Translations under genes and position numbers: made by a program | The notes under the pieces: model-generated | Seen by the model: only the letters and a program-made list of their open reading frames with translations | What the model was told of the DNA's origin: nothing | Databases searched by the model: none | NCBI RefSeq assembly: GCF_018129085.1 | Contig: NZ_JAAGBB010000015.1 | Coordinates: forward strand, 62,001-126,000 | DNA length: 64,000 bases | Direction: 5' to 3' | Source: Plastoroseomonas hellenica | GTDB lineage: Bacteria > Pseudomonadota > Alphaproteobacteria > Acetobacterales > Acetobacteraceae | In this document: positions 7,909 to 62,227 of the stretch, in pieces | Numbering within the stretch: the first letter of the stretch is position 1 | How the letters are laid out: the number at the start of each line of letters is the position of its first letter

Positions 7909-8241
7909 ATGGCGAAGGCCCCACCCTATCTCGTGAAGCTGGTCGAGCCTGTGATGATCGGTGCGGACGTCAGCGTGCGTCGTTTCATTCTCGCGCCGGG
8001 GGACGCAATTCCCTGGCACCGCCACAGCACGACCGACGATCTGTGCGTGCTGCTCTCTGGGACGCTATGTGTGCAGACACGGGAGCCGGACGGCGAGCAC
8101 CTGCTCAGGCCCGGTGACACGCACCATACGACGGCCGGTACCCCGCACCGGCTCTCGAATATCAGCGGAGAGGATTGCGGCTTCCTGCTGATCCAAGGTG
8201 TCGGAACGCGGGACTTCGTCAAACTCGAGGTGACGGCGTGA
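7909..8241 (+). CDS. Small single-domain cupin protein
   Basis: 110 aa. Cupin motif 1 reads GDAIPWHRHSTTDDLCVLLSG, with two metal-ligand histidines (WHRH) but Asp where Glu is usual; motif 2 is GDTHHTTAGTPHRLSN with the third histidine. It is a cytosolic beta-barrel with no signal peptide. Small cupins act as dioxygenases, isomerases or ligand sensors, and nothing here separates these. The stop overlaps the GTG start of a Bug receptor gene (GTGA at 8238-8241), so the two are probably translated together and the cupin may handle the ligand that the receptor collects. Confidence 0.85.
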   Translation: MAKAPPYLVKLVEPVMIGADVSVRRFILAPGDAIPWHRHSTTDDLCVLLSGTLCVQTREPDGEHLLRPGDTHHTTAGTPHRLSNISGEDCGFLLIQGVGTRDFVKLEVTA

Positions 8242-33377: not shown

Positions 33378-33406
33378 GAGATCGTTTGAAAGCAGCGACG
33401 GGCCGG

Positions 33407-34309: not shown

Positions 34310-34453
34310 CGGGCGTCCCTCCCTCGCTGCACGCACCAGTCTAGCCGGTCGCGGCATCTGCGGCAGGACCTGTTTCCGGTTGGAGGGGCTGCCGTACCCC
34401 TTTGCAACGGCCCCGAAAACCTTGACCCTCGCGGGAAACGCAGGAGACGAAGG

Positions 34454-35443
34454 ATGTTGAGGAATGCTCGCCGCGGCCTGGTCGCGGCCGCGCTGGCCAT
34501 GGGCTGCGCGGGGGTCGCGGCCGCGCAGGAGGCGCCGGCCGCCTTCCCGCTGCGCCCCATCACCATGGTCGTCGGTTTCGCGCCCGGGGGGCCGGCCGAT
34601 GTCATCGCCCGCCTCATCGCGCCCAGCCTCGGCGCCGATCTCGGCCAGACGGTCGTGGTGGAGAACGCCTCCGGCGCCGGTGGTTCGATCGGCCAGGGCC
34701 GCGTCGCCGCCACGCGCCCGGACGGCCACACGATCCTGTTCGGCAGCCTGGCGCAGGCCACAATCCCGACACTGCACCGCAATCCCGGCTTCGACCCGAC
34801 GGCGCTGCAGGCGATCGGCATGGTGAATGAGGTGCCGATGGCGATCATCGCGCGCCGCGACTTTCCCGCGGCGAACCTCGTGGAGTTCGCGGCCGCCGTG
34901 CGCCGCGACGGGCGGCGCTTCAACCTCGGCAATGCCGGCGTCGGCTCGACCAGCCATCTGTGCAGCCTGCTGCTGGTCTCCGCGATCGGCACGCCGGTGA
35001 CGCTGGTTCCCTATCGCGGCAATGCGCCTGTCATGAACGACCTGATGGCCGGCACGCTCGACATGGGCTGCGACCAGACGACGAACAACGCCGAGCAGAT
35101 CCGGGCCGGTGCGATCCGCGCCTATGCGATCAGCACGCCGGCGCGCGCCGCCGCGCTGCCGGACGTGCCGACGACGGAGGAGGCGGGGCTGCCGGCGATG
35201 CGCATGTCCGGCTGGAACATGCTCTTCGCCCGCGCCGGCACGCCGGGGCCGGTCGTCGAGCGGCTGAACCGCGCGCTGCTGGCGGTGCTGCGGGATGAGA
35301 CCGTGTCGCGGCGCATGGTCGAGCTCGGCAGCATGCCGGCCGCCGGGGACCGCACCACGCCGGAGGGCGCACAGGCCTTCTGGCGTGCCGAGACCGCGCG
35401 CTGGAAGCCGCTGATCGAGGCGGCGGGACAGGTCGTTGACTGA
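34454..35443 (+). CDS. Bug-type (TctC family) periplasmic solute receptor
   Basis: 329 aa from the ATG at 34454. Signal peptide: NARRGLVAAALAMGCAGVAAAQ. Family hallmarks: LRPITMVVGFAPGGPADV, VVVENASGAGGSIG and RPDGHTILFG. The domain-2 hinge VPYRGNAPVMNDLMAGTLD is typical. It binds a carboxylate in the periplasm; no TctA/TctB genes are adjacent, so it is the third orphan receptor here. It is divergent from the Tat-exported dienelactone hydrolase, with 144 bp between starts. Confidence 0.92.
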   Translation: MLRNARRGLVAAALAMGCAGVAAAQEAPAAFPLRPITMVVGFAPGGPADVIARLIAPSLGADLGQTVVVENASGAGGSIGQGRVAATRPDGHTILFGSLAQATIPTLHRNPGFDPTALQAIGMVNEVPMAIIARRDFPAANLVEFAAAVRRDGRRFNLGNAGVGSTSHLCSLLLVSAIGTPVTLVPYRGNAPVMNDLMAGTLDMGCDQTTNNAEQIRAGAIRAYAISTPARAAALPDVPTTEEAGLPAMRMSGWNMLFARAGTPGPVVERLNRALLAVLRDETVSRRMVELGSMPAAGDRTTPEGAQAFWRAETARWKPLIEAAGQVVD

Positions 35444-37396: not shown

Positions 37397-37753
37397 TCAG
37401 CCACATGGCCCGACCAGCAGGACCGCGGCACCTTCCCAAGTGACGGCAAGCGCCGCCAGGAGTGTGGTGGCGAGGGTGAGCCGTGCCAGGAAGTGCCGCA
37501 CGCCCGCGCCGTCGCGCACGCGCGGCCGGCGCCGGGCGCGCATCCCGATGCCGAGGAGAAGCAGGAGCGCCAACGCCGTCGCGGCGAGGATCAGCACGGG
37601 AATGATGGGCTGGCCGAACAGCCTGTGCCCCGCCAGCCCACGCCCGCAGGCGATGGCGTTCGCGAGATAGATCGCCCCGAAATGCAAGGCCCACACGATC
37701 AGCCCGGCCGTGGCGCCGATGAGGGGGGCAAGGCCTGCTGCGCGCCCGCTCAC
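37397..37753 (-). CDS. Small membrane protein of the cytochrome oxidase operon
   Basis: 118 aa with three hydrophobic segments (about 9-31, 45-68 and 90-113), separated by a basic loop (RARRRPRVRDG). Its ATG overlaps the stop of the fused subunit I/III gene by 4 bp, so it is translated with the oxidase. No cofactor motif is visible. Small hydrophobic proteins at this place in SUI-SUIII oxidase operons are often accessory or subunit IV-like; that role is inferred from position only. Confidence 0.75.
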   Translation of the reverse strand: MSGRAAGLAPLIGATAGLIVWALHFGAIYLANAIACGRGLAGHRLFGQPIIPVLILAATALALLLLLGIGMRARRRPRVRDGAGVRHFLARLTLATTLLAALAVTWEGAAVLLVGPCG

Positions 37754-40284: not shown

Positions 40285-41243
40285 CGCAGGCTCCCCAGCC
40301 AGGCCGCGAGCGCCTGCAGATCCGCCGGCGCCAGCACCGCGCCGAAGCCGGGCATGGCACTCGCCGGCTTGATCGCCTGCGGGTCCGCGATCCAGGCACG
40401 CAGCGCGTCGCGGTGATTGGGCAGGGTGCCGGCGGCCAGGCTGAGCCGGGCGCCGATCCGGGTCAGGTCAGGTCCGTTGCGGCCGCTCCATTCGGTGCCG
40501 CGCAACGCGTGGCAGGCGCCGCAGCCGGCGCTGGCGAAGGCGCGCCGGCCTTGCGCCAGCAGCGGGTCCTCCGGCGCCGGCACCGCTGTGCGCTGGCGCT
40601 CGATCCACGTCGCGAATCCCGCTTCCGTCGTCGCTACCGCAAAGAGCGCCATGCGCGTGTGCTGCGCACCGCAGAACTCCGCGCATTGCCCGCGCATCAC
40701 GCCGGGCCGATCGGCCGTGAAGCGCAGCCGGTTCAGATGCCCTGGGATCATGTCCCGCTTGCCGTGCAGCGCCGGGATCCAGAGGCTGTGGAGGACGTCC
40801 GTGCTGGTCAGCAGCAGCTCCACCGGACGCCCGACGGGGATATGGATCTCGTTCGCGGTGACCACGTCGTGGTCCGGGTAGCGCACCTCCCACCAGAATT
40901 GCCGACCGGTGACCTCGATGCGCAGCGGGTCCGCGCTGCGTCCGCCGAGGGCATCGGCCAGACCGAGCGTGTGGATGAGCAGCGCGCTGAGCAGCAGGGT
41001 GGGCAGGACGGCGCCGCCCGCCAGGATGGCACCGCGCGAGCCGAGCCGGCGCCGCAGGCGGGCGCCGCCGCGAAAGGCGAGCAGCAACAGCAGCATGGTG
41101 AGCAGGAAGATCGCCGCGCCACCGATGATGAGCAGCCAGCTCAGCCCGGCGATCCCAGCCGCCTCCGGCCCCATCGGCGCGAGGGCGGATTGCTGCCCCG
41201 AGCAGGCGGCGAGCGGCAGCGCCAGGAGGGCGGCGGGCCGCAT
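40281..41243 (-). CDS. ctaC: Cytochrome c oxidase subunit II with C-terminal cytochrome c domain
   Basis: 320 aa; its ATG at 41243 shares one base with the ctaG stop. A lipobox (LPLAACSG) suggests a lipid-anchored N-terminus. Two membrane helices (about 30-60, 72-95) precede the periplasmic CuA domain, with ligands in GQCAEFCGAQHTRM. The last 90 residues hold a class I cytochrome c domain (CGACHAL) with Met ligand in SAMPGFG. This caa3-type layout passes electrons from cytochrome c through the fused heme to CuA. Coupled downstream to subunit I by a 4-bp overlap. Confidence 0.95.
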   Translation of the reverse strand: MRPAALLALPLAACSGQQSALAPMGPEAAGIAGLSWLLIIGGAAIFLLTMLLLLLAFRGGARLRRRLGSRGAILAGGAVLPTLLLSALLIHTLGLADALGGRSADPLRIEVTGRQFWWEVRYPDHDVVTANEIHIPVGRPVELLLTSTDVLHSLWIPALHGKRDMIPGHLNRLRFTADRPGVMRGQCAEFCGAQHTRMALFAVATTEAGFATWIERQRTAVPAPEDPLLAQGRRAFASAGCGACHALRGTEWSGRNGPDLTRIGARLSLAAGTLPNHRDALRAWIADPQAIKPASAMPGFGAVLAPADLQALAAWLGSLR

Positions 41244-41974
41244 CAGGCCCGCGCCCGCCGCAGCGCGATGCCGAGCCCGGCGACGCAGAGGGCCGCGAAG
41301 ACCAGCCCGCCCGGCACCCACATCAGCAGGCCGCCGAGTTGCTGATCCTCGAGCGGGCTGAGCCCCCAGGGCGCCGTCACGCCCGGCGCATGCACGGCGA
41401 GGAAGAGCGGCCGTGGCGCCAGAGTGAGCAGCGCGCCGAGCAGCCCCATCTGCACCGCCGTCGCGAGCGCCGCGAGGGCCGCGGCATCCGGCCGCACCGA
41501 CGCGCGGAACCCGAGCGCCGCCCAGAGCCAGAGCGCGGTCCCGAACAGCGAGGCGTGCATCGCCCAATAGATCGAATCGCGCGCGAAGCTCGCGGCATAG
41601 GGACCCGGCAGGTGCCAGGCCCAGAGCGCCAGCGCAAACAAGGCCGCCGGCGCGGCGAGATTTGGGGCTCGCTGCCGATCCGGGCCGATCATGCCGAAGG
41701 CGATGAGCGGTGCCGCGACCAGGATCAGCAGCAGGTGCTGCGCGACCCGCGCCGAGAACAATGCGACCGAGAGGTTGCAGAGGGGCGAGACCAAGGCGAG
41801 GACAAGCACTGCCCAGCCGAGTGCGGACGCAGCCTGCCGCCGGGCGCCGGCATCGCGCAGCCGCGGCATCGCCAGTCCCCCCATAACGAGCAGGGTGGCG
41901 ATCAGCACCGGATCCGGGTTCCAGGCGACGCCGCCCGGGACGGGCGGTGTTCCGCAATAGGGGATCTCGGGCAT
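41243..41974 (-). CDS. ctaG: CtaG-type cytochrome oxidase assembly protein (caa3_CtaG)
   Basis: 243 aa from the ATG at 41974, which has GGAG 7 nt upstream; a GTG two codons earlier is less likely. It is polytopic, with about seven membrane segments, and has the family's conserved pieces: LALVSPLCNLSVALFSARV, then QHLLLILVAAPLIAFG, and APRPLFLAVH with QQLGGLLMWVPGG. CtaG proteins of this family help assemble caa3-type oxidases, probably in copper delivery. It sits directly upstream of subunit II in the operon, as expected. Confidence 0.93.
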   Translation of the reverse strand: MPEIPYCGTPPVPGGVAWNPDPVLIATLLVMGGLAMPRLRDAGARRQAASALGWAVLVLALVSPLCNLSVALFSARVAQHLLLILVAAPLIAFGMIGPDRQRAPNLAAPAALFALALWAWHLPGPYAASFARDSIYWAMHASLFGTALWLWAALGFRASVRPDAAALAALATAVQMGLLGALLTLAPRPLFLAVHAPGVTAPWGLSPLEDQQLGGLLMWVPGGLVFAALCVAGLGIALRRARA

Positions 41975-42031
41975 CGGCACGCTCCTCTCCGGGAGGGCAA
42001 CCGATGTGCTGCCGTTCGGGTTGCGCGCGCC

Positions 42032-43180
42032 TCAACGCGCCCCGGCCGGCTGGGCGGCATACCAGAGCGCCACCGCCCGGACCTCGTCCGGGCGCAGGGG
42101 CCAGAGCGACGGCCGCGCCGGCAGCCTCTCCCGATGCACGCCGAGCGCCCGGGCCATGATGCCGGCACGCGGCCCTTCCGCCTCCGGCCCGCGCACGCCG
42201 GTCATGAACAGGGTGAGCTGGGTCGCGATATAGCCGGCCTGCTGCCCGGAGAGGCGCGGATACAGGAGGTTCGGCGCGCCCGGTCCCGGGCCATGGCAGG
42301 TCGCGCAGGCGGCGACGCCCCGATCGGGCAGCCCGTCGCGGGCGATCCGGCCGCCGAGGGCCAGGTCCTCCTCCGCCACCTCCGGCGGGTTCGGGACGGT
42401 CGGCTGCTGACCGGCGTAATGCGCGGCCAGCAGCCGGATCTGCATGGGATCAAGCGCCGCCGCCACCGGCTGCATGACCCCACTCGGCCGGGTGCTGCGG
42501 GCATAGGCTTCCAGCGCCGCGGCCAGGTACTCGGCGGACTGGCCTTGCAGCCGCGGGAAGGCGCCGTCCCCGCCGCCGTCCCGGCCATGGCAGCGCGCGC
42601 AGGCCGCCAGGCCATTCCCCGTCGGGCCGGTCAGCAGCAGGAGGCGAAGCTCCTCATCCGCACGGGCAACCGCCGCCTCGGTCTCGCCGAGGGCGAGGCG
42701 GCGATACGCCGCCGCGTCCATGCCCGGCAGCCGCAGCAGGAAGGCGACGACATCCCAGACCTCATCCGCGCGCTGCGGCGCCGGCCAGGCCGGCATGCCC
42801 GTGTATTTGATGCCGTGCCGGACGATCCAGAAGAGCTGGGCGGGCGTCCATTCCCCGATCTGGGGCCCGAGATCGGGCGGCTCGGGCAGCATGCCGCGGC
42901 TGACCGGGCTGCGCGCCTCCCCGGGCGCTCCGTGGCAGGGCGCGCAGCCGCCATGGTAGTGCCCTGCTCCCCGGCGGATCATCATGGGATCGTCGAGCGG
43001 GGGTGCCGCGATGCCGCGCGCCTGCGTCGCGACCGACTGGCGCAAGGCGAAGTCGAGGAAGGTGCTGAAGAAGGGATAGTGCCCGCTGGTCGCCGCGACG
43101 CTGTAGACACCCGACCAGGCGAACAGCGCTGCCGCTGCCAGCGCCGTGCCGACGAGGCCGAGGATCAGCCGCCAATGCAT
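42032..43180 (-). CDS. Triheme c-type cytochrome of the oxidase operon
   Basis: 382 aa. One N-terminal membrane anchor (RLILGLVGTALAAAALFAW), then three CxxCH heme sites: CAPCH near residue 80, CARCH near 195 and CATCH near 295. Each lies in a class I cytochrome c domain with a later Met (e.g. TGMPAW). The ATG has no good ribosome-binding site and the frame stays open upstream with no alternative start codon, so a slightly longer N-terminus is possible. It is transcribed toward ctaG with a 57-bp gap and probably donates electrons to the caa3-type oxidase. Confidence 0.92.
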   Translation of the reverse strand: MHWRLILGLVGTALAAAALFAWSGVYSVAATSGHYPFFSTFLDFALRQSVATQARGIAAPPLDDPMMIRRGAGHYHGGCAPCHGAPGEARSPVSRGMLPEPPDLGPQIGEWTPAQLFWIVRHGIKYTGMPAWPAPQRADEVWDVVAFLLRLPGMDAAAYRRLALGETEAAVARADEELRLLLLTGPTGNGLAACARCHGRDGGGDGAFPRLQGQSAEYLAAALEAYARSTRPSGVMQPVAAALDPMQIRLLAAHYAGQQPTVPNPPEVAEEDLALGGRIARDGLPDRGVAACATCHGPGPGAPNLLYPRLSGQQAGYIATQLTLFMTGVRGPEAEGPRAGIMARALGVHRERLPARPSLWPLRPDEVRAVALWYAAQPAGAR

Positions 43181-50835: not shown

Positions 50836-51437
50836 GCCGCCACCTCGTTCATCGTCAGCACCTTGCCGCCGCCCGGCCACAGCACGACGGAGCTCATCGA
50901 GCCCGGAGCTATTTCGAAGCGCGTATAGGCGTCGAGCGGCATCGAGAGACAGCTCATCAGGGCGGCCTTGATCACGTCGCCATGGCTGACCAGCGCCACT
51001 CGGCCTTGGGGATGGGCATCGCGGATACGCCCGATCGCCGCGACGACGCGCCGCTGCACTTCCGCCATCGTCTCGCCGGCGGGGGCACGCGTGACGGCGC
51101 GCTCCGCGTTCCAACGGGCCCAGAGTGGGTCATCACGCAGAGCCGTGAAGCTGCGGCCGGCCCAGTCCCCGAAGTCGATCTCGGTGAGCCCGTCATCGAT
51201 GGCAACCGGAAGCCCCAGCCGGCCGGCGATGATGCCGGCCGTTTCCCGGGCACGCTCGACCGGGCTGCTGTAGATGGCCTGGAGCGACTCTTCCGCCAGC
51301 CGCTCGGCAAGGCTCTGCGCCTGGCGCCTGCCGGACTGGCTCAGGCAGATCCCGGAGTCGCGCCCGCAGAGCACCTGGTCCAGGGCATCATGGGCGGCGT
51401 GCCGCAGGAGGAGGATGGTGGTGACCTCGGTCGTCAT
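50832..51437 (-). CDS. Histidine phosphatase superfamily protein
   Basis: 201 aa. The catalytic RH motif is [11 protein letters not shown] near residue 12, with [11 protein letters not shown] (second Arg), [15 protein letters not shown] and the second catalytic His in [12 protein letters not shown]. This is the phosphoglycerate mutase-like fold (CobC/broad phosphatase type). It overlaps both the upstream inositol-phosphate synthase stop and the downstream GT start, so it may dephosphorylate inositol-3-phosphate or a later glycosyl-phosphate, replacing the usual inositol monophosphatase. That role is inferred only from coupling. Confidence 0.9.
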
Positions 51438-52519
51438 CCCGGATGTCCGTCCGCGATGAAGGCCTGCAGGCGGCGCCGCGCCTCATGGTCGCGGTACTGC
51501 TCGGGCGGCGACTTCATGAAGTAGCCGGATGGTGCCGACAGCGCGCCGGCGATGCCGCGATCGAGGGCGAGCTTGGCGCAGCGCACCGCATCGATGACGA
51601 CACCCGCCGAATTGGGCGAATCCCAGACTTCGAGCTTCAGCTCCACATTGATCGGCAGCCCGCCGAAGCCGGTACCTTCCAGCCGGATATGCGCCCACTT
51701 CCGGTCGGTCAGCCAAGGCACGTGATCGCTCGGCCCGATATGGACGTCCTGCGCGGCTGGGGGAATGTCGTACTGGCTGGTCACCGCGCGGGTCTTGGAG
51801 ATCTTCTTCGACTCGAGCCGATCACGCTCCAGCATGTTGAGGAAATCGGTATTGCCGCCGAAGTTGAGCTGGTAGGTGCGATCGAGCCGCACGCCGCGGT
51901 CGCGATAGAGATTGGCCAGGGTGCGATGGATGATGGTGGCGCCGACCTGGCTCTTGATGTCGTCGCCGATGATCGGCAGGCCCCGCTGCTCGAAGCGGCG
52001 CCGCCAGGTGGGATCGGATGCGATGAAGACCGGGATGCAGTTGACGAAGGCGCAGCCGGCGTTCAGCGCCTGCTCGGCATACCATTCGGTCGCGTGCTGG
52101 GATCCGACCGGCAGATAGGAGACCAGGACCTCGGTGCCGGACCGGGCCAGCACGTCCGCCACATCGGCCTCAGGCCCATCATCCTCCTCGATCCAGTCGC
52201 GGAGATAGTGGCCGATGCCGTCGAGCGTCTTGCCGCGCTGAACGACCACGCCCGTTTCCGGCACCTCGGCGAAGCGCGCGGTGTTGTTGGGGGGCGCGAA
52301 GATGGCCTCCGCCACATCGCGGCCGACCTTTGCCGCATTTACATCGAAGGCGGCGGAGAGCGTGACGTCGCGTACGTGATAGCCGCCGAGCTCGACGCTC
52401 ATCAGGCCCGGCACCGGCTCATTCGCGGGGGCATCCCGGTAGTAGGTCAGCCCTTGCACGAAGGAGGATGCGCAGTTGCCGACGCCAACGATACCCACCC
52501 GCAGGGCAGGCCGGCTCAT
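51434..52519 (-). CDS. ino1: Inositol-3-phosphate synthase
   Basis: 361 aa from the ATG at 52519; it is the first gene of the minus-strand operon. N-terminal Rossmann motif [16 protein letters not shown], then [15 protein letters not shown], and the catalytic [15 protein letters not shown] followed by [10 protein letters not shown] and [10 protein letters not shown] with conserved lysines. Length fits the short bacterial/actinobacterial Ino1. The enzyme cyclises glucose-6-phosphate to inositol-3-phosphate with NAD. Such a gene is rare in alphaproteobacteria outside thermophiles and special glycolipid producers, so its place at the head of a glycosyltransferase operon is notable. Confidence 0.95.
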
Positions 52520-52856
52520 GATCCGCGCGCCTCGGCCAGCATCGTCGTTCGGGGAGCCGGAGCGGAGAGCTTGCGCATGATGTCGACGATCAAGGTCCAC
52601 TCTCCGCTGCTCGTTGGCTGGCGATCGATGCGCACCTTCGGGTCCACCGATCTCGAAAGCGGGAACGTTCATTCCTCGTAGGCGGCTGCACGGAATTGCC
52701 ATGATTCGCCACAACTCAATGTGAGTGCGACTTTTTCGCGTTCGAACGTTGATGCCCTGGACAGCCGCCGGCGCCGCGGCGGGCATCGGCACGGCACGCG
52801 CCTGCCGTCGCGGCCGGTTGGCCTGCCCTGTCGATTGTTCGAAGGGGAGACCTGGC
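52520..52856. promoter_or_regulatory. Divergent control region, 337 bp, of the glycoconjugate cluster
   Basis: It holds the promoters of ino1 (minus) and the first epimerase operon (plus). Two palindromes stand out: GAACGTTC at 52663-52670 and CGTTCGAACG at 52739-52748, both built from GTTC/GAAC half-sites. The second sits beside an AT-rich stretch (CTTTTTCGCG). These could be operators for one shared regulator, but none is encoded nearby and I found no confident -35/-10 boxes. Confidence 0.4.
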
Positions 52857-53972
52857 GTGACGGACACCATCCTGATCACCGGCGGCGCCGGCTTCATCGG
52901 CCGCCACCTCGCGCATGCCCTGCTCAAGAAAGGCCATCATGTGCGCGTGCTCGACAGCTTCATCGCGCAGGTGCACGGCGACCGCGGACAGGACGGCCTG
53001 GACCCGGATGTCGAAGTGATCCGGGGCGATGTGCGGGACGGCGATCTGGTGCGACAGGCGCTCGCTGGGGTCGACAGGGTGGTGCACCTCGCCGCCGAGG
53101 TCGGCGTCGGGCAGAGCATGTATGCGGTGGACCAGTATGTCTCCGTCAACGATCACGGCACCGCGGTACTGTTCCAGCAGCTCATCGCCAAGCCGGTGCG
53201 GCGCGTCGTGGTCGCATCCTCCATGAGCATCTATGGCGAAGGCCTCTACCGCGACGCCGATGGCGCGCTGATCGAGGACGCGGTCCGGCAGCCGCGTAGC
53301 GGCGCCGGCGCGTCCTGGGATCCGCTGGACGCGCAGCGACGGCCGCTGGTGCCGCTGCCGACGCCGGAGTGGAAGCGGCCGAACCTCGCCTCGGTCTATG
53401 CCATCACGAAATTCACGCAGGAGCGGCTGACGCTGACCCTGGCGCCGGCCTATGGCATGGAGGGCGCCGCGCTCAGGCTATGGAATGTGTATGGTCCGGG
53501 CCAGGCGCTTTCCAACCCCTATACGGGCGTGCTGGCCATCTTCGCGGCGCGGCTGCATGGCGGGCAGCCGCCGCTGATCTTCGAGGATGGCCTGCAACGC
53601 CGCGACTTCGTGCATGTGGAGGATGTCGCGCGGGCCTTCATGCTCGCGCTGGAGCATCCGAAGGCGTCGGGCGAGGTCTTCAACATCGCAAGCGGCGTCG
53701 ATCGCACGGTGCAGGAGGTCGCCGCCGATCTGGCGCGGGCCATGGCGCGCCCGGGTATTGCACCACTCATCACCGGCAAGGCCCGCACCGGCGATATCCG
53801 GCACAATATCGCCGATATCACCAAGGCCCGGACGGCGTTGGGCTATGCCGCGCAACGCCTGGACTTCACCGCCGATCTTGCGGAACTCGCGGAATGGGTG
53901 GCGCGCCAGCAGGTGAAGGATCGTGTCGGCCAGGCCCGAAGCGAGCTGGAAGCGCGGGGGCTGGTCGCATGA
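52857..53972 (+). CDS. NAD-dependent epimerase, dTDP-L-rhamnose 4-epimerase type
   Basis: 371 aa; GTG at 52857 with GGGGAG 8 nt upstream. Extended [33 protein letters not shown], active-site strand [13 protein letters not shown] and [12 protein letters not shown] (Tyr-x3-Lys), then [19 protein letters not shown] and [15 protein letters not shown]. The [10 protein letters not shown] and [15 protein letters not shown] segments are characteristic of the dTDP-L-rhamnose 4-epimerase/WbiB group. It is the first gene of the plus-strand operon and overlaps the next epimerase gene by 4 bp. Substrate sugar not proved. Confidence 0.88.
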
Positions 53973-55057
53973 ACGGCCTCGCGGCGCCACCCCTCGCCGG
54001 GGCGCGGCCGGTCCTGGTCACCGGCGGTGCCGGCTTCATCGGCTCCAACCTCGCCGACCGGCTCGCGCAGGAAGGCCACCACGTCCTCATCTATGATGCG
54101 CTGCTGCGGCCGGGGGTGGAGGCCAATCTGGATTGGCTGAAGCAACGCCATCCGCGGCACATCGCCGCCAGCATCGCCGATATCCGGGACGCCAGCGCGC
54201 TGGCAGCCGCAGTGGCCGAGGCGCAGGCGGTCTTCCATCTGGCGGCGCAGGTCGCGGTCACCACCAGCCTTTCGGATCCGCGCCTGGATTTCGAGGTCAA
54301 CCTCGGCGGCAGCTTCAACCTGCTGGACGCGCTGCGCCGGCGCGGCGCGCCGGTGCCGCTCATCTTCGCCAGCACCAACAAGGTCTACGGCGACCTCGCC
54401 GACATCGCGCTGGAATGCGTCGGCGACGCCTATCTGCCGAAGGATCCCGCGCTCCGCGCCACCGGCATCGGAGAGGAGCGCCCGCTCGATTTCCACACGC
54501 CCTATGGCTGCTCGAAAGGTGCGGCCGATCAGTATGTGCTGGATTTCGGCCGCGCCTATGGCTTCCCGACAACGGTGCTGCGCATGAGCTGCATCTACGG
54601 CCCACGGCAGATGGGGACCGAGGACCAGGGCTGGGTGGCGCATTTCCTGATCCGTGCCCTGCGCGGGGAGCCGATCAGCATCTATGGCGACGGCTGCCAG
54701 GTGCGCGATGTGCTGGACGTGCACGACGCGGTGTCCGCCTATCTGGAGGCTTGGCGCCGTATCGACCAGGTGCGTGGCCGCAGCTTCAACCTCGGCGGCG
54801 GTCCCACGAATGCCATCAGCCTGCGCCAGCTCGTGGCGCATATGGGGACGCTCGTCGACCATCCGGTGGAGACCCGCCACGGGGACTGGCGTGCGGGCGA
54901 CCAGCGCTACTACGTCTCCGATACCCGGAGCGTAAGGGCGGCGCTCGGTCTGCCGGCACCGCGGCCATGGCGTGAGGGCGTATCGGCGCTCGCCGAATGG
55001 CTGCGCGGGCAGGCCAGCAAAGCGGCGGCAGCGAGGATGGAGGCCGCGGTCCCGTGA
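53969..55057 (+). CDS. NAD-dependent epimerase, CDP-paratose 2-epimerase-like
   Basis: 362 aa; ATG overlaps the upstream stop. [44 protein letters not shown] and HTPYGCSKGAADQYVLDFGR (Tyr-x3-Lys) match the CDP-paratose 2-epimerase/RfbE-like branch, as does YGPRQMGTEDQGWVAHFL. These enzymes invert C2 of a nucleotide-linked sugar through a transient oxidation. No CDP-glucose pathway gene is in the window, so the natural substrate may be a different nucleotide sugar. Coupled to the following GT4 by a GTGA overlap. Confidence 0.87.
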   Translation: MNGLAAPPLAGARPVLVTGGAGFIGSNLADRLAQEGHHVLIYDALLRPGVEANLDWLKQRHPRHIAASIADIRDASALAAAVAEAQAVFHLAAQVAVTTSLSDPRLDFEVNLGGSFNLLDALRRRGAPVPLIFASTNKVYGDLADIALECVGDAYLPKDPALRATGIGEERPLDFHTPYGCSKGAADQYVLDFGRAYGFPTTVLRMSCIYGPRQMGTEDQGWVAHFLIRALRGEPISIYGDGCQVRDVLDVHDAVSAYLEAWRRIDQVRGRSFNLGGGPTNAISLRQLVAHMGTLVDHPVETRHGDWRAGDQRYYVSDTRSVRAALGLPAPRPWREGVSALAEWLRGQASKAAAARMEAAVP

Positions 55058-56190
55058 CGGCCCGGCGTGGACGGGAAGGTGGCATCCGCCTGTTCATGAC
55101 CGCGGACGCGGTTGGTGGCGTCTGGACCTACGCGCTGGACCTGGCGCAAGGCCTTGCCGCGCATGGCGTCACGACGACCCTGGCCGTTCTCGGCCCGGCG
55201 CCCGGCACCGACCAGATCGCGCTCGCCGATGCCGTCCCGGGCCTCTCGCTGCAGGTCACGGCGCTGCCGCTCGACTGGCTCGCCGCGCATGATGGGGAGG
55301 TTCTGGCGGCGGGCGCGGAGATCGCCGCCGCCGCCCGCGCCGCCGGGGCCGATATCGTCCATCTGAACAGCCCCGCCCTGGCGGCGGCGGGCGGCTTTCC
55401 CGCACCGGTCGTGGGTGCCTGCCACTCCTGCCTCGCGACCTGGTGGGCGGCCGTGCGCAACGGTCCGATGCCGCCCGACTTCGCGTGGCGGACCGATCTG
55501 CTCCGGCGCGGCTATGCCACAGCGACGGCGCTGGTGACGCCGAGCCAAGCCTTCGCGCGGGCGACGACGGAGGCCTACGCATTGCCGCTGCCGCCGCACG
55601 CGATCCACAATGGCCGGAGCCCGGCGCGGATAGGCGGGGCCGCGCCGACGGCGGTGCCGGACTTCGTCTTCACCGCCGGTCGGCTTTGGGATCCCGGCAA
55701 GAACCTGTTGGCGCTGGATCGCGCCGCCGCCCGCCTGCCGGTCCCCGTCCTGGCGGCAGGGCCATTGCGCGGCCCGGAGGGCAGCGAAGTCGCGCCGAAG
55801 CACCTCATCGCGCTCGGCCCGCTCGACGCGCGGGCCATGACGGAGAGGCTGCGGGCCAGGCCGATCTATGCCGCCCTGGCCCGCTATGAGCCCTTCGGTC
55901 TTGCAGTGCTGGAAGCGGCGCAGGCCGGCTGCCCGCTGGTGCTGTCCGACATCCCGACCTTCCGGGAGCTCTGGGACGACGCTGCCCTCTTCGTCCCGGC
56001 CGATGATGACGAAGCCGCCGCAGCAGCGATCATCCGGCTTCTGGCCGACAAGCCGATGCGCTCGAGGCTCGGCCTGGCCGCGCAGCGCCGGGCACGTCGC
56101 TACAGCGTCAGCGCCATGGCAGCCGCGACATTCGAGCTCTACCGATCGCTGCTCCGCCGCACCGGCCGGAGCGAGGAGGCGGCTGCATGA
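55054..56190 (+). CDS. Family 4 glycosyltransferase
   Basis: 378 aa; GTG at 55054 overlaps the epimerase stop (GTGA). GT-B fold: N-terminal RLFMTADAVGGVWTYALDLAQ (glycine-rich acceptor loop), central VVGACHSC and VTPSQAFAR, C-terminal FTAGRLWDPGKNL and the donor-binding ARYEPFGLAVLEAAQAG (E-x7-E motif), with LSDIPTFREL. This is a retaining enzyme using a nucleotide sugar. It resembles GT4 proteins of polysaccharide and glycolipid clusters; the donor and acceptor are unknown. Coupled by ATGA to the next transferase. Confidence 0.9.
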   Translation: MTARRGREGGIRLFMTADAVGGVWTYALDLAQGLAAHGVTTTLAVLGPAPGTDQIALADAVPGLSLQVTALPLDWLAAHDGEVLAAGAEIAAAARAAGADIVHLNSPALAAAGGFPAPVVGACHSCLATWWAAVRNGPMPPDFAWRTDLLRRGYATATALVTPSQAFARATTEAYALPLPPHAIHNGRSPARIGGAAPTAVPDFVFTAGRLWDPGKNLLALDRAAARLPVPVLAAGPLRGPEGSEVAPKHLIALGPLDARAMTERLRARPIYAALARYEPFGLAVLEAAQAGCPLVLSDIPTFRELWDDAALFVPADDDEAAAAAIIRLLADKPMRSRLGLAAQRRARRYSVSAMAAATFELYRSLLRRTGRSEEAAA

Positions 56191-57338
56191 GGATCGTCTA
56201 CTTCACCCATTCCCTCCTCTCCTGCTGGAACCACGGCAACGCGCATTTCCTGCGCGGCATGCTGCGTGAGCTGGCGCAGCGGGGCCATGACGTCCTCGCC
56301 TGCGAGCCGATGCAGGCCTGGAGCCTGGAGAACCTGCTGCGCGATCATGGGCAAGCGGGGCTCGGCGCATATTACGCCGCCTATCCCGAGTTGCGGTCGC
56401 AGCTCATCGCATCGGAGGAGGATATCGGGGCGGCGCTGTCCGGCGCCGACCTGGTGCTCGTGCACGAATGGAACGAACCGGCGTTGGTCGCGCGCATCGG
56501 CAGGGCGCGGCGGCAGGGTGGCCGCTTCACGCTGCTGTTCCACGACACGCATCACCGCGCGGTCAGTGACCCCGACGCCATCCGCCGCTTCGACCTCGAC
56601 GGCTATGATGGTGTCCTCGCCTTTGGGGAGACCCTGGCGGCTGTATATCGGCGCTGGGGCTGGGGCGATCGCGTCTTCGTCTGGCACGAAGCCGCCGATA
56701 CCAGGTTGTTCCATCCGCCGGCGCGGGAGCGGCGGCGGGATGGCCTGGTCTGGATCGGCAACTGGGGCGACGACGAACGCAGCGCGGAGCTGGAAGGCTT
56801 TCTGCTGCAGCCAGCGCACGCCGTCGGCATGCCGCTCGACATCTATGGCGTGCGCTATCCCGAAGCGGCGCGGCTCGCTCTGGACCGCCATGGCGCGCGG
56901 TTCCGCGGCTGGCTGCCGAATGCGCGCGTGCCGGAGGTCTTCGCACACCACTTGGCGACCGTGCATGTCCCGCGCCGCTTCTACGTGACGATGCTGCCGG
57001 GCATTCCGACCATCCGGGTATTCGAAGCCCTGGCCTGCGGCATCCCGCTGGTCTCCGCGCCCTGGGAGGATTCGGAAACGCTGTTCCGCCCCGGCCGCGA
57101 TTATCTCGTCGCCCGGACGGAGGCCCGCATGGTCCAGCATCTGCGGACGCTGCGCGAGGACGCCGCACTTCGCCAGTCGCTCGCCGCCAGCGGGCTGGAG
57201 ACGATCCGGGCCCGGCATGGCTGTGCCCATAGGGTCGACGAACTGCTGACAATCCTGACGCGGCTGCAACGCGCGCCCACCGATCCGGGTGCCGCCACCA
57301 GCACGCCGGGAGAGCGAGAGGGAGCGCTGCTGTCATGA
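56187..57338 (+). CDS. CgeB-like glycosyltransferase (paralogue C)
   Basis: 383 aa; ATG overlaps the GT4 stop. Begins MRIVYFTHSLLSCWNHGNAH and has LVLVHEWNEPALVARIGR, LLFHDTHHRAVSD, WIGNWGDDERSAEL, then the C-terminal LPGIPTIRVFEALACGIPLV and FRPGRDYLVA. The same CgeB/Glyco_trans_1_2 family as paralogues A, B and D, but more distant in the N-terminal half. The acceptor-binding part has a distinctive His-rich loop. Donor unknown. Its stop overlaps the methyltransferase start, so sugar transfer and methylation are probably linked. Confidence 0.86.
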   Translation: MRIVYFTHSLLSCWNHGNAHFLRGMLRELAQRGHDVLACEPMQAWSLENLLRDHGQAGLGAYYAAYPELRSQLIASEEDIGAALSGADLVLVHEWNEPALVARIGRARRQGGRFTLLFHDTHHRAVSDPDAIRRFDLDGYDGVLAFGETLAAVYRRWGWGDRVFVWHEAADTRLFHPPARERRRDGLVWIGNWGDDERSAELEGFLLQPAHAVGMPLDIYGVRYPEAARLALDRHGARFRGWLPNARVPEVFAHHLATVHVPRRFYVTMLPGIPTIRVFEALACGIPLVSAPWEDSETLFRPGRDYLVARTEARMVQHLRTLREDAALRQSLAASGLETIRARHGCAHRVDELLTILTRLQRAPTDPGAATSTPGEREGALLS

Positions 57339-58105
57339 ACCGGATCCAACCCTGGTCGCGCGAGGAGATCCAGCAGCGCGTGGAAGCGCTCGGCCCCTGG
57401 TTCCACAACCTCGACCTCCAGGGCGTGCGCACCGCGCCGGAGCATTTCCTCGGCGACTATCCGGCGATCAAGTGGGGCCGCTTCGCGCATGCCATTCCCC
57501 AGGACCTCACCGGGCTCAGCGTGCTCGATATCGGCTGCAATGCCGGCTTCTATTCCATCGAGATGAAGCGCCGCGGTGCCGAGCGCGTGCTCGGCATCGA
57601 CTCGGATGAGGAGTATCTGGAGCAGGCCCGCTTCGCCGCGGATGTCAGCGGCGCCCGGATCGAGTTCCGGAAGCTGTCCGTCTATGACCTGGGCGCGCTC
57701 GGCGAGCGCTTCGATCTCGTGCTCTTCATGGGCGTGCTCTACCACCTCCGGCACCCGCTGCTGGCCCTGGATTTGATCCATGAGCACGTGGCCCGCGACC
57801 TGCTGGTCTTCCAGTCGATGCAGCGCGGCGCATCCACGGTCGAGCCGGTGCTGGAAGACTACGAATTCTGGGACGAGGCGCTCTTCGATCGGCCGAGCTT
57901 CCCACGCCTGCATTTCATCGAACATCGCTATGCGCATGATCCGACCAACTGGTGGGTGCCGAACCGGGCCTGCGCAGAGGCCATGCTACGCAGTGCCGGC
58001 TTCGCCATCACCGAGCGAGCCGAGGACGAAGTCTATGTTTGCCGACGCGTCGACGCGCCTGACGGCGCCGGCGCCGTCTATCCGGCCAGGGGGAGAGAGC
58101 CGTGA
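57335..58105 (+). CDS. TIGR04290-like SAM-dependent methyltransferase
   Basis: 256 aa; ATG overlaps the GT stop. N-terminal WFHNLDLQGVRTAPEHFLGDYP is typical of the Rta_06860/TIGR04290 family, followed by class I motifs: VLDIGCNAGFYSIEMKRRG (SAM loop), LGIDSDEEYLEQAR (acidic end of strand 2) and LVLFMGVLYHLRHPLLALD. Family members occur in glycosyltransferase clusters and resemble CmoA/CmoB-like fold enzymes; the substrate is not established, probably a sugar hydroxyl. The next gene overlaps by GTGA. Confidence 0.86.
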   Translation: MNRIQPWSREEIQQRVEALGPWFHNLDLQGVRTAPEHFLGDYPAIKWGRFAHAIPQDLTGLSVLDIGCNAGFYSIEMKRRGAERVLGIDSDEEYLEQARFAADVSGARIEFRKLSVYDLGALGERFDLVLFMGVLYHLRHPLLALDLIHEHVARDLLVFQSMQRGASTVEPVLEDYEFWDEALFDRPSFPRLHFIEHRYAHDPTNWWVPNRACAEAMLRSAGFAITERAEDEVYVCRRVDAPDGAGAVYPARGREP

Positions 58106-58992
58106 TCGAAGCCGCGATGATCTGGAACGAACCCAACAACAAGTCGCATTGGGATCCGGAGGTGGATCCAGGCTGGGGGCTGTTCGCCGATATGGCGAAG
58201 GTGGCAGGGCAAGCGATCCGGGCGGAGCATTCGACCCTGCCGCGGGTGCTCGGCGGCATCTCTCCCATCGATCCCGACTTCATCCGAAACATGGCCGGCA
58301 AGGGTGTTCTGGATCAGATGGACGCGGTCGCGGTGCACGGCTTCCCGCTCGACTGGAATCTCTGGCAGATCGGCGAATGGCCGGCGAAGCTGCGTGAGAT
58401 CCAGGCGGTGACGGACCTGCCGGTCTGGGTCTCCGAGGTCGGCGTCTCCTCCTTCGGGGCCGAGGAGGTACAGGCCTGGGGCCTCGATCGCACCGCCGAG
58501 CTGCTCAAAGGCCGCGCACCGCGCATCCATTGGTACAGCCTTTGCGATCTGCCGCGCGCCTGGGGAGCGACAACGCGGCATCGCGAGGCCGAGGGATCCT
58601 CCTATTACCGCCATTTCTACATGGGGCTGCTGCGGGAGGACGGGACGCCGAAGCCATCCTTCGATGCCTTCGCCGCGCACACGCCGGAGCTCGGCCTCTG
58701 CCAGTGGTTCCATTTCGAAGATCATCGGTTGGACGACGCGGTCGCCTGGATGCGGCAACTCGGCGTGCGCTATCTCCGCACCGGGCTATCCTGGGCCGAC
58801 AGCTTCCGCCCCGACGCGCTGGCCTGGTTCGACCGGCAGATGCAGGCGCTTGAGGAGTTCGACGTCACCGTCACCTTCTGCTTCACGCCGGAGCATCGCG
58901 GCATCGCTCCGCACCACACCAGTGCGCCGCTGATGAAGGAGGAGTTCGCGGAGTTCTGCGCGGCGATGGTGCGGCGCTACGCCAAAGGCTGA
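58102..58992 (+). CDS. Glycoside hydrolase clan A-like protein with circularly permuted barrel order
   Basis: 296 aa; GTG overlaps the methyltransferase stop. It begins directly at a strand-4-like acid/base motif, IEAAMIWNEPNN (Glu10), then VLGGISPID, MDAVAVHGF, the nucleophile strand VWVSEVGVSS (Glu112) and RIHWYSLCDLP. After a loop, the C-terminal third looks like strands 1-3 of the same barrel: LGLCQWFHFED, RYLRTGLSWAD, VTVTFCFTP and EFAEFCAAMVRRYA, the last being the helix that normally precedes strand 4. So the order is 4-8 then 1-3. Proteins like this are annotated as beta-xylosidases near similar clusters; no signal peptide, so it acts in the cytosol. Hydrolysis or transglycosylation is unproven. 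Confidence 0.78.
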   Translation: MIEAAMIWNEPNNKSHWDPEVDPGWGLFADMAKVAGQAIRAEHSTLPRVLGGISPIDPDFIRNMAGKGVLDQMDAVAVHGFPLDWNLWQIGEWPAKLREIQAVTDLPVWVSEVGVSSFGAEEVQAWGLDRTAELLKGRAPRIHWYSLCDLPRAWGATTRHREAEGSSYYRHFYMGLLREDGTPKPSFDAFAAHTPELGLCQWFHFEDHRLDDAVAWMRQLGVRYLRTGLSWADSFRPDALAWFDRQMQALEEFDVTVTFCFTPEHRGIAPHHTSAPLMKEEFAEFCAAMVRRYAKG

Positions 58993-59472: not shown

Positions 59473-60558
59473 ATGAAGCTGGTCATCTTCGGCCTCAGCA
59501 TCACCTCCTCCTGGGGCAACGGTCATGCCACGCTCTGGCGCTCCCTCTGTCGCGCCCTGACGCGACGGGGGCATCGCATCACCTTCTTCGAACGCGACGT
59601 CTCTTGGTACGCCGGTGCCCGCGACCTGGAGGAGATGCCGGGCCTCGAGATCGTCCTCTACGCGGACTGGGAGAGCCTGCGGCCTCGTGCCGCTCGGGAG
59701 GTGATGGAGGCGGATGTGGCCATGGTCACATCCTATTGTCCGGATGGCATCGCGGCCTCTGCCCTGGTGCTGGCGTCGCGGGCCGCGCGCGTCTTCTATG
59801 ATCTCGATACGCCGGTGACCCTGGCGGCGCTGGCCACCGGTGACAGGCCGGCCTATCTCCCGCCCGAAGGCCTCGGCGATTTCGACCTCGTGCTCAGCTT
59901 CACCGGCGGCGCGACGCTCGAGCGGCTGCGGAAGGAACTCGGCGCCCACCACGTCCTGCCGCTCTATGGCAGCGTCGATCCGCTGGCCCATCGGCCCGTC
60001 GCGCCGATGGCGGAGTACCGTGCCGACCTTTCCTATCTCGGCACCTATGCCGCCGATCGCCAGCCGGCCCTGGAAGCGTTCCTGATCGAGCCGGCGCGGC
60101 GATTGCCGCAGCACCGCTTTCTGATCGGTGGCGCCCAATACCCTTCGGACTTCCCGTGGACGGAGAACATCCACTTCGTCCGCCATATGCCGCCGCAGCA
60201 GCATCCAGCATTCTTCTCATCCTCCCGCATCACGCTGAACGTCACGCGGCGCGCCATGGCGGAGGCAGGATGGTGCCCATCCGGGCGGCTGTTCGAAGCC
60301 GCCGCCTGCGGCACGCCCCTGCTCAGCGATGCCTGGCCCGGCCTGTCGGACTTCTACACGCCGGGGCAGGAGATCCTGATCGCCCGCGACACCGCCGACG
60401 CCATGATGGCAATCCGGTGCGACGATGCCGAACTGAGACGGATCGCCGACCGCGCGCGCGAACGCACCCTCGATGAACACAGCGGGGACCGCCGTGCCCA
60501 GGACCTGGAAGCGGCGCTCGGGACGATCGCGGCAACCGCGATGCAGACGGAGGCCTGA
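59473..60558 (+). CDS. CgeB-like glycosyltransferase (paralogue D)
   Basis: 361 aa; first gene of the third glyco-operon, ATG at 59473 after GGGGCAGCCC. It mirrors paralogue A throughout: FGLSITSSWGNGHATLW, ERDVSWYAGARDL, FYDLDTPVTLAALATGD, LSYLGTYAADRQPALEAFL, LNVTRRAMAEAGWCPSGRLF, EAAACGTPLLSDAWPGL. The two are probably products of an internal duplication and may add similar sugars. Donor unknown. The nucleotidyltransferase gene starts 3 bp past its stop. Confidence 0.89.
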   Translation: MKLVIFGLSITSSWGNGHATLWRSLCRALTRRGHRITFFERDVSWYAGARDLEEMPGLEIVLYADWESLRPRAAREVMEADVAMVTSYCPDGIAASALVLASRAARVFYDLDTPVTLAALATGDRPAYLPPEGLGDFDLVLSFTGGATLERLRKELGAHHVLPLYGSVDPLAHRPVAPMAEYRADLSYLGTYAADRQPALEAFLIEPARRLPQHRFLIGGAQYPSDFPWTENIHFVRHMPPQQHPAFFSSSRITLNVTRRAMAEAGWCPSGRLFEAAACGTPLLSDAWPGLSDFYTPGQEILIARDTADAMMAIRCDDAELRRIADRARERTLDEHSGDRRAQDLEAALGTIAATAMQTEA

Positions 60559-60560
60559 CC

Positions 60561-61412
60561 ATGTGGGGCATCATCCCGGCCGCCGGAATCGGCAGCCGCA
60601 TCCAGCCGCTGGCTTTTTCCAAGGAGCTGCTGCCTGTCGGCAGCCGCCTGGAGGACGGCGTCGAGCGACCGCGCGCGGTCAGCGAACACCTGATCGAGCG
60701 CATGATCGCGGCTGGCGTCGACAAGCTCTGCTTCGTCATCGCGCCCGGCAAGAGCGACATCGTGAACTACTACGGTTCGCGCATCGGGTCGGCCCAGATC
60801 ACCTATGTGGTGCAGGCCGAGCCAGCCGGGCTTTGCGACGCGATCTTCTGCGCCTGCCCTTGCATCGCCCCGGGGGAACAGGTCGTGGTCGGGCTGCCGG
60901 ACACGATCTGGTTTCCCCGAAGCGGCCTCGCCCTGCTGCCGGATCACGCGCTCTCCTTCCTGCTGTTCCCCGTCGAGCATCCGGAATTCTTCGACGCCGT
61001 CGTCACCGATGGCGCGGGGATGGTGCAGGAGATCCAGGTGAAGCAGCCGGATGCGCGATCGCATTGGGTCTGGGGCGCCTTCCGCATGCCCGGGCATGTC
61101 CTGCACGAGCTGCATGCGCTATGGCAGGAGCCCGGCCGCGGCGACGAGTATGTCGGCACCTTGGTCAATGCCTGGCTGGCGCGCGGCGGGCGCGCCCACG
61201 GCGTTTGTGCCGGCGAAACCTATGTCGATGTCGGCACCATGCATGGCTGGCGGGAGGCGGTGGCGCTGCTCGGCGCCCGCCCGGCCGAAGCGCCCGTACT
61301 GGTGCCGTTCCGGGCCTTGCAGCAGACCTCGCTCACGCATGCGGCGGCCCGGCGCTCCGACCAGATCCCGGCACAGGGCGCAGGCGGCGCCTCCCGGATA
61401 GGCGCGGACTGA
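60561..61412 (+). CDS. Sugar-phosphate nucleotidyltransferase
   Basis: 283 aa. N-terminal nucleotide-binding signature IIPAAGIGSRIQPLAFSKELL (GxGxR and the following Lys) and the metal-binding Asp in VVGLPDTIWFP. It matches the glucose-1-phosphate thymidylyl/cytidylyl/uridylyl-transferase group. The C-terminal 30 residues (HAAARRSDQIPAQGAGG) look like a disordered tail. It would activate a sugar-1-phosphate for the neighbouring transferases. Nucleotide preference cannot be read from sequence; the rml genes for dTDP-rhamnose are not present in this window. Confidence 0.9.
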   Translation: MWGIIPAAGIGSRIQPLAFSKELLPVGSRLEDGVERPRAVSEHLIERMIAAGVDKLCFVIAPGKSDIVNYYGSRIGSAQITYVVQAEPAGLCDAIFCACPCIAPGEQVVVGLPDTIWFPRSGLALLPDHALSFLLFPVEHPEFFDAVVTDGAGMVQEIQVKQPDARSHWVWGAFRMPGHVLHELHALWQEPGRGDEYVGTLVNAWLARGGRAHGVCAGETYVDVGTMHGWREAVALLGARPAEAPVLVPFRALQQTSLTHAAARRSDQIPAQGAGGASRIGAD

Positions 61413-61414
61413 GG

Positions 61415-62227
61415 ATGGTGGCGGCGGAGCCTTTGCTCGCGCTGCTCGCCGACGGAGAGGCACCGGTCGACCTCCCCGCGCTGCTCGTCGCCGCGCATCC
61501 GGATGACGAGGTCATCGGCATCGGTGCTCAGCTATCGCGGTTCCGCGACATCACGCTGCTGCATGCGACGGATGGCGCGCCGCGCGACGGGCGTGACGCG
61601 GCAATGCATGGCTTCGCCGACGTCGAATCCTATGCCGCCGCGCGCCGGCGAGAGCTGCTGGAAGCGATCGCCGTCGCCGGGATCGCAGCCGATCGCGCGC
61701 TGGCATGCGGCATCCCGGATCAGCAGGCAACGCTGCGGCTCGCGGATCTCACGCGGCAACTCGCGGCACTCATCGCCGCGCGGCGTCCGGCGGCGCTCAT
61801 CACCCATGCCTATGAAGGTGGTCATCCCGATCATGACGCGACCGCCTTCGCCGTGCACGCCGCGCTGCGTCTGACGGATGCCCCGCGGCCGACGCTGCTG
61901 GAGATGGCCGGCTACTACGCAGGGCCGCAAGGGATGGAGACGGGCTGCTTCCTGCCGATGGCCGGATGCGCGCCGGTCCGCCTCCCCGTCTCACCCGCGG
62001 CGCGGGAGAGCAAGCTGCGGATGATCGCCTGCTTCGCCACGCAGGCGCGGGTGCTGGCGGGCTTTCCGGTCGACGTCGAAGCCCTGCGCCCGGCGCCGCG
62101 ATACGACTTCACGCGGCCGCCGCATCCCGGGCGGCTGCACTATGAAAATCATCCCTGGGGCATGACCGGCGGAATCTTCCGCCGGATGGCCGCGGAGGCC
62201 TTGCAGGCGCTGGAGGGCAACCGATGA
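61415..62227 (+). CDS. PIG-L/LmbE family deacetylase
   Basis: 270 aa; ATG at 61415, 2 bp past the upstream stop. Zinc-site motifs are intact: LLVAAHPDDEVIGIG (AHPDDE) near residue 27 and GGHPDHDATAF (HPDH) near 134. The family removes N-acetyl groups from GlcNAc-inositol, GlcNAc-PI or similar. It is followed, by 4-bp overlap, by a GT4 and then a CelD-like acyltransferase. With inositol-3-phosphate synthase in the same cluster, the set recalls mycothiol's MshA/MshB/MshD logic, but no MshC is seen and homology to MshB is only at family level. Confidence 0.91.
   Translation: MVAAEPLLALLADGEAPVDLPALLVAAHPDDEVIGIGAQLSRFRDITLLHATDGAPRDGRDAAMHGFADVESYAAARRRELLEAIAVAGIAADRALACGIPDQQATLRLADLTRQLAALIAARRPAALITHAYEGGHPDHDATAFAVHAALRLTDAPRPTLLEMAGYYAGPQGMETGCFLPMAGCAPVRLPVSPAARESKLRMIACFATQARVLAGFPVDVEALRPAPRYDFTRPPHPGRLHYENHPWGMTGGIFRRMAAEALQALEGNR

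Follow-up and report, generated by a model that had tools for sequence, protein, structure and literature searches.

The open reading frame at positions 58102–58992 (plus strand, 296 residues, single domain) of the window, i.e. the whole 64,000-nucleotide stretch of Plastoroseomonas hellenica DNA analysed here, very probably encodes a naturally circularly permuted glycosidase of the clan GH-A type, whose closest solved relative is the GH39-like enzyme PslG; the case is built on sequence comparisons and on a predicted structure. As read from the sequence, strands 4–8 of the barrel come first and strands 1–3 last. A linker of about 12 residues connects the old C- and N-termini, and the new chain ends lie in the loop that separates helix 3 from strand 4, immediately ahead of the acid/base motif. 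The corresponding parts of the gene, all on the plus strand, are (i) the ancestral C-terminal part with strands 4–8 (58102–58656; residues 1–185, which match PslG chain 132–320); (ii) the short linker that connects the ancestral C-terminus with the N-terminus (58657–58692; residues 186–197, limits approximate and drawn from a rotation scan and the predicted structure); (iii) the ancestral N-terminal part with strands 1–3 and helix 3 (58693–58986; residues 198–295).

Boundaries of the permuted gene

The frame reported by the first-pass annotation is real. It starts with a GTG codon that overlaps by four bases the stop of the upstream methyltransferase gene (Methyltransf_9/25; 57335–58105, plus strand), and the two motifs from which that annotation set out, a MIWNEPNN start and a VWVSEVGV segment reached by residue 112, are located at residues 6–13 and 108–115. 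They contain E10, the predicted acid/base (codon 58129–58131, plus strand; WNEP motif, after strand 4), and E112, the predicted nucleophile (codon 58435–58437, plus strand; strand 7). This boundary is stable across the family: the first codon at the matched position is ATG in 71, GTG in 8 and GTC in 1 of 80 homologous loci, and there is no room ahead of strand 4 for a signal peptide.

Full-length normal-order relatives with N-terminal strands 1–3 exist (see below), as would be expected if the frame were truncated or misannotated, the true gene starting upstream with strands 1–3 and the C-terminal third being something else. This explanation is refuted by three observations: the same frame is open upstream for 13 codons only, inside the methyltransferase gene, so that no N-terminal domain has been missed; each half of the protein is present in exactly one copy, and in the permuted order, in 80/80 loci (forward frames, 1500 bases either side of the match); and the C-terminal piece itself matches strands 1–3 of the relatives.

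Sequence similarity rises when the two halves are rejoined

Searches of genome contigs returned at least 585 relatives among 596 pattern matches. The best 80 of these, which were kept, all match essentially over their full length with 77–85% identity, and the genera represented among them are Roseomonas, Belnapia, Microvirga, Methylobacterium, Bradyrhizobium, Mesorhizobium, Chelativorans, Inquilinus, Peristeroidobacter and the gammaproteobacterial Steroidobacter. The permuted family is strikingly conserved, with a mean column identity of 84%.

A first sign of permutation came from a single-sequence search of the PDB, which gave an order-reversed pair of matches, with query residues 3–189 on PslG 132–324 and query residues 200–262 on PslG 25–90, weakly (E 0.41). 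Six-frame genome searches revealed two kinds of relatives, namely full-length ones in the order seen in the window (61 distinct genomes) and two-piece ones (16 distinct genomes), where query residues ~190–295 lie upstream of query residues ~3–187 in one reading frame. Fourteen of the 16 two-piece, or normal-order, genomes were taken for analysis, G330 and G555 being left out. A profile of 81 permuted sequences matches all 14 normal-order loci in two pieces, C-terminal piece first, with 2–8 residues between them. The strand 4–8 piece does so with i-E values of 3e-21 to 9e-33 and the strand 1–3 piece (residues 198–294) with i-E values of 2e-7 to 7e-14, so that the latter alone is far beyond chance in every locus. 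Two contiguous segments that have swapped places and are each homologous in their own right, the hallmark of a circular permutant, are thus found relative to 14/14 relatives, and the proposal that the C-terminal third corresponds to strands 1–3 holds in all of these loci. Homologues carrying strands 1–3 at their N-terminus, the finding that was to count against permutation, do occur, but solely as this separate normal-order sister group, and extra half-copies were seen in 0/80 permuted loci.

For symmetric TIM barrels, the claim of a permutation depends on sequence similarity rising after rejoining, according to an excerpt of PMC2395249. Such a rise is observed (i) in a rotation scan with 46 cut points against the 14 normal-order loci, where the mean best single-domain score goes from 93.0 bits in the native order to 149.0 bits after rotation, with a peak at a rotated start of 190–191, a plateau at 186–194, and 284 profile positions spanned versus 181; (ii) against PslG, which six diverse permuted sequences match with E 4.1e-11 over profile positions 11–272 when rejoined (alignment A2) and with E 7.5e-6 over positions 3–186 in their native order (alignment A3); (iii) in hhalign comparisons with A4, a profile of 13 of the 14 normal-order barrels (locus L162 left out), which cover 276 columns with E 1.3e-44 for the rejoined form and 174 columns with E 2.3e-30 for the native one. 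The rejoined order hence outscores the native order against PslG and against natural normal-order relatives, as the first-pass annotation had anticipated. Searching 385 class genomes with the rejoined profile at E ≤ 1e-8 gave matches in 14 of them (permuted form in 8, normal-order form in 6) and no tandem-duplication intermediate; one of the permuted-form genomes, G572, additionally carries a more distant glycoside hydrolase.

The permuted chain is predicted to close one barrel

AlphaFold2, run on an alignment built from the permuted family itself (A1), yielded a model with a mean pLDDT of 89.5 and a pTM of 0.89, in which all eight strands (residues 4–7, 48–53, 75–80, 108–113, 142–145, 198–200, 224–230 and 254–260) are arranged in permuted order in one barrel, with helices between them and a helix at the chain end (279–293). 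The pLDDT drops below 50 only at residues 155–167, in the loop after strand 8. The model contains the eight strands, three of them from the C-terminal third, in one confidently predicted barrel, as the structural check suggested with the initial claim called for. An intact fold with the old termini joined is thus what we see, in the AlphaFold2 prediction only. Consistently, the top ten VIA-align matches superimpose the chain from end to end on complete TIM barrels (219–240 residues, Z 13.0–13.8), which supports a closed barrel and does not identify a family. Note that TIM barrels are pseudo-symmetric, so that a permutation cannot be demonstrated from structure alone; it is the comparison of sequences that demonstrates it.

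Identifying the family with Foldseek or VIA-align was tried and rejected, as unrelated TIM barrels (GH20, MTHFR, sugar epimerases) are ranked as high as clan GH-A enzymes or higher, in our reading because both aligners follow the order of the chain and the barrel has pseudo-symmetry; fold searches were therefore taken only as evidence for a single closed barrel made by the entire chain. Among 50 Foldseek matches, those to GH2-type glucuronidase and GH10 proteins mostly cover about 177–213 columns, the matches to phage GH5 proteins in the viral library are partial, and PslG is absent from the fold-search matches listed.

Catalytic residues and family assignment

Enzymes of clan GH-A carry an Asn-Glu acid/base pair ending strand 4 and a Glu nucleophile ending strand 7. 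The permuted protein displays these features: a predicted (β/α)8 barrel, N9-E10 just after the predicted strand 4–7 and E112 at the end of the predicted strand 108–113. Both glutamates, as well as N9 and the WNEPNN context, are invariant in 81/81 permuted sequences. E10 and E112 align with chain indices 139 and 250 of PslG, a spacing of 111 that is also that of E165 and E276, the PslG residues with which they are paired. These two residues are key to hydrolytic activity, according to an excerpt of PMC9075953, and the recombinant PslG described in an excerpt of PMC7237758 comprises residues 31–442. Judging from their invariance, E10 as acid/base and E112 as nucleophile would carry out a retaining double-displacement reaction.

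Profile libraries recognize the protein poorly. In the native order, no Pfam model scores above its cut-off, with a weak match to Glyco_hydro_cc only, and NCBIfam gives no match. After rejoining, sub-threshold matches are obtained with Cellulase (PF00150; 20.4 of 23.5 bits) and Glyco_hydro_cc (15.9 of 21). The GH39 model PF01229 was not reported at E ≤ 1 for either form (HMMER filters drop weak matches), and the best PDB match is PslG, described as resembling GH39. GH70 and GH13 families are absent from the Pfam results and from the PDB matches of the general searches. The lack of a Pfam model above cut-off and of an NCBIfam match is what one would expect if the permutation were real and the barrel non-catalytic or differently acting, e.g. 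lectin-like or a scaffold, and the striking conservation of the family could also reflect such an unusual role. We consider this improbable, given the invariance of both glutamates and of their WNEPNN context; moreover, both glutamates are lost in three of the four readable normal-order barrels left in permuted-form genomes (see below), which suggests that the pair is kept where it is needed.

A glycan assembly cluster with and without a normal-order barrel

In the window, the permuted gene is part of a gene run that encodes epimerases, glycosyltransferases, a methyltransferase and a nucleotidyltransferase. Upstream of the methyltransferase gene lie, on the plus strand, epimerase 1 (EPI1, 52860–53972), which overlaps epimerase 2 (EPI2, 53969–55057) with no barrel between them, a GT4 glycosyltransferase (54997–56190) and a PF13524 glycosyltransferase that serves as cluster marker (GTc, 56187–57338). 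On the other side lie, also on the plus strand, a second PF13524 glycosyltransferase (GTd, 59473–60558) and a nucleotidyl transferase (NTP_transferase, 60561–61412), which have homologues in 43/80 and 44/80 permuted loci, respectively. An Inos-1-P_synth family protein is encoded on the minus strand (51434–52645). These neighbourhoods were compared by mapping 13 window proteins onto the 80 permuted and the 14 normal-order loci. The nearest same-strand gene upstream of the permuted one (within 300 nt) encodes the methyltransferase in 65 of the 80 loci, the nucleotidyltransferase in nine and GTc in one, with another gene or none in five.

Together with the GT4 genes, the Inos-1-P_synth gene and the 61511–62227 frame, which by eye we take to encode a PIG-L-type deacetylase, recall the assembly of inositol glycosides (mycothiol-like). 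Elsewhere in the window, three frames (1158–2603, 8175–9203 and 33089–35443) look by eye like Bug/TctC-type periplasmic substrate-binding proteins. The 37750–42035 region, set in a stretch with a strong AT skew (0.22–0.29), contains a long frame resembling, again by eye, a fused cytochrome c oxidase subunit I/III (37750–40284) and an adjacent subunit II-like protein.

The normal-order barrel occupies a definite place, between EPI1 and EPI2, in a glycosyltransferase cluster with the same core genes: EPI1, EPI2, GT4 and GTc are common to both cluster types. The EPI1–EPI2 gap is 924–1068 nt, i.e. one barrel long, in 13 of the 14 normal-order loci, and 4314 nt, with other genes in between, in the remaining one (L166). 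In the permuted loci that hold both epimerases, 0–81 nt separate the aligned segments and the barrel slot is empty (50/50). Downstream of the normal-order barrel, which lies directly ahead of EPI2, the open frame continues far enough for EPI2 in 14/14 loci, and Pfam places an epimerase domain after the barrel in the four frames scanned (4/4).

These neighbours, together with the lack of a leader, suggest that the permuted enzyme works in the cytoplasm, where it would trim or transfer an oligosaccharide or glycan intermediate supplied by the epimerases and glycosyltransferases encoded nearby. Its most likely function is that of a retaining glycosidase or transglycosidase of the cytoplasm, with an intermediate of the cluster's glycan as its substrate.

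The two forms rarely coexist

In a family sample of 299 genomes, 44 carry the permuted form, nine the normal-order form and two weak matches only. With GTc as a marker (E ≤ 1e-60), 52 genomes of this sample are positive: 42 permuted, nine normal-order and one (G154) with neither form, where GTc and GT4 are present and neither EPI1 nor EPI2 was found in the 16 kb examined. Two permuted genomes without GTc, G163 and G187, are 72–73% complete. At the initial thresholds, none of the 52 GTc-positive genomes has both forms; the chance of zero overlap between 42 and 9 at random is P = 2.7e-9, kinship being ignored. A more sensitive search with the A4 profile disclosed decayed normal-order copies in two of them, G074 and G152.

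The split is also seen between plasmids. Sinorhizobium meliloti pSymB encodes a permuted orthologue (WKL39990.1; 79% identical over 294 residues), annotated as a beta-xylosidase, which is a name only, the permutation going unmentioned in the record table. Rhizobium etli, R. phaseoli and R. leguminosarum, including plasmids of R. etli and R. phaseoli, have the normal-order form as one continuous match, with epimerase annotations where annotated. A search of the literature on pSymB and on the xylosidase returned nothing on function.

The A4 search (E ≤ 1e-5) covered the 61 genomes with the permuted form, plus those to which 48 of the 80 loci belong; three of the 48 were already among the 61 (identical coordinates), which makes at most 106 distinct genomes. 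This normal-order profile detected decayed copies that the permuted query had missed, and five permuted-form genomes turned out to have an additional normal-order barrel. Both catalytic glutamates are lost in three of the four readable ones: (i) in G642 (L172:5835–7781), the acid/base motif is replaced, ITE reads ITG, and the barrel is in one open frame with EPI2; (ii) in G152 (L196:1652–4189), the acid/base region is largely deleted, ITE again reads ITG, and the frame runs on into further sequence; (iii) in G074 (L195:841–3855), the aligned positions read WTDS and ITQ, also in one open frame with further sequence. G1066, the genome of L093, has a divergent normal-order barrel (L198:2558–4660) with both glutamates kept, WTEP in place of WNEP and diverged neighbouring motifs; it is possibly in the middle of displacement. 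The G501 barrel breaks off with its contig at the nucleophile, and this residue is still present. In comparison, WNEP and (I/L/V)W(I/L/V)TE are kept in 14/14 normal-order barrels where no permuted gene was found. Weaker matches in G572 (C73), G026 (C47) and G1066 (C10) were set aside as presumably other glycoside hydrolases, that of G572 falling in the outgroup of the tree described next.

A tree of 44 sequences was built from the rejoined alignment and rooted at its midpoint. In it, all permuted sequences group together with a support of 94/96, just under the tool's mark of 95/80, and the normal-order sequences make up a second group with the remnants (99/98), whose branches are long and whose exact place is unsure. 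Eight more distant normal-order glycoside hydrolases split off at 100/99.

Likely displacement of the normal-order enzyme

Permutations are usually proposed to arise by duplication and fusion followed by loss of the outer parts. Here, one permutation event may have made a stand-alone gene, which would then have displaced the normal-order enzyme. In nearly all permuted-form genomes examined, the normal-order barrel was not found or has lost its catalytic glutamates, and we lean towards the view that a permuted GH-A barrel, which arose once, has taken over the function of its normal-order counterpart in a glycan assembly cluster. In this view, the permuted form is now widespread, being found in Alphaproteobacteria on both chromosomes and megaplasmids as well as in Steroidobacter-type Gammaproteobacteria, and some genomes retain the counterpart as a catalytically dead barrel linked to an epimerase. 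The displacement is not absolute, as the normal-order barrels of G1066 and G501 show.

The cluster types differ in content: a homologue of the Inos-1-P_synth protein is found in 71/80 permuted loci versus 2/14 normal-order genomes, and a homologue of the methyltransferase is present in 6/14 normal-order genomes. The substrates of the two forms may hence differ, and one may go further and suppose that the forms are not interchangeable but belong to variant pathways with a shared core, so that their mutual exclusion would reflect cluster type and lineage and no functional displacement. The exclusivity statistic, which ignores kinship, leaves room for this explanation, which is possible, if rather unlikely: the EPI1, EPI2, GT4 and GTc core is present in both types, the normal-order slot is empty in the 50/50 permuted loci in view, three of the four readable extra barrels are without both catalytic glutamates, and a single genus (g119) holds permuted (G176, G285, G310) and normal-order (G218) genomes. 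We thus favour displacement, the two forms probably performing the same step, with variant substrates possible.

Comparison with known systems

If this reading is true, the family described here would be a new glycosidase family and would offer a natural experiment in which a permuted enzyme takes over from a normal-order one. The case unites a permuted enzyme with a normal-order sister whose cluster shares the core genes, and it includes genomes having either form or both, as well as remnants without catalytic residues. Fitness, folding order and replacement of the permuted enzyme are directly testable in laboratory rhizobia, since S. meliloti pSymB carries the permuted gene and R. etli/phaseoli plasmids the normal-order one. 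It is also a warning that profiles built in the normal order see such permuted enzymes only in pieces.

To our knowledge, naturally occurring circular permutants are rare among catalytic TIM barrels, and permuted beta-glucosidases are probably cases of GH3 domain order. Beta-glucosidases are listed among natural permutants in an excerpt of PMC2395249, and GH70, compared to GH13, provides a natural precedent of a permuted catalytic barrel among glycosidases, as an excerpt of PMC5216370 reports. GH70 glucansucrases differ from the protein described here in that they belong to clan GH-H, act on alpha-glucans and have extra interrupted domains, and no homology between them and the permuted protein was seen in the general Pfam and PDB searches. 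A search of the full-text literature, with few subscription journals covered, found no natural permutation in clan GH-A, which is weak evidence of absence.

The closest relatives found are the normal-order GH–epimerase proteins of Alphaproteobacteria (L156–L169; 32% identity over 276 columns), which share core cluster genes and catalytic motifs with the permuted protein and differ from it by their normal order, their position between EPI1 and EPI2 and their single open frame with EPI2. Finally, Pseudomonas aeruginosa PslG (PDB codes: 4zn2, 5bx9) is homologous over nearly the whole barrel after rejoining, with the same catalytic pair and spacing. It is a glycosidase whose gene belongs to a cluster for polysaccharide synthesis, as would be the case for the permuted protein, and its hydrolytic activity is reported to be important for Psl production in spite of this gene location (excerpt of PMC9075953). 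PslG differs from the permuted protein by its normal strand order, by a predicted signal peptide (residues 1–30) and by a second, carbohydrate-binding domain (excerpt of PMC7237758), the permuted protein having neither of the latter two.
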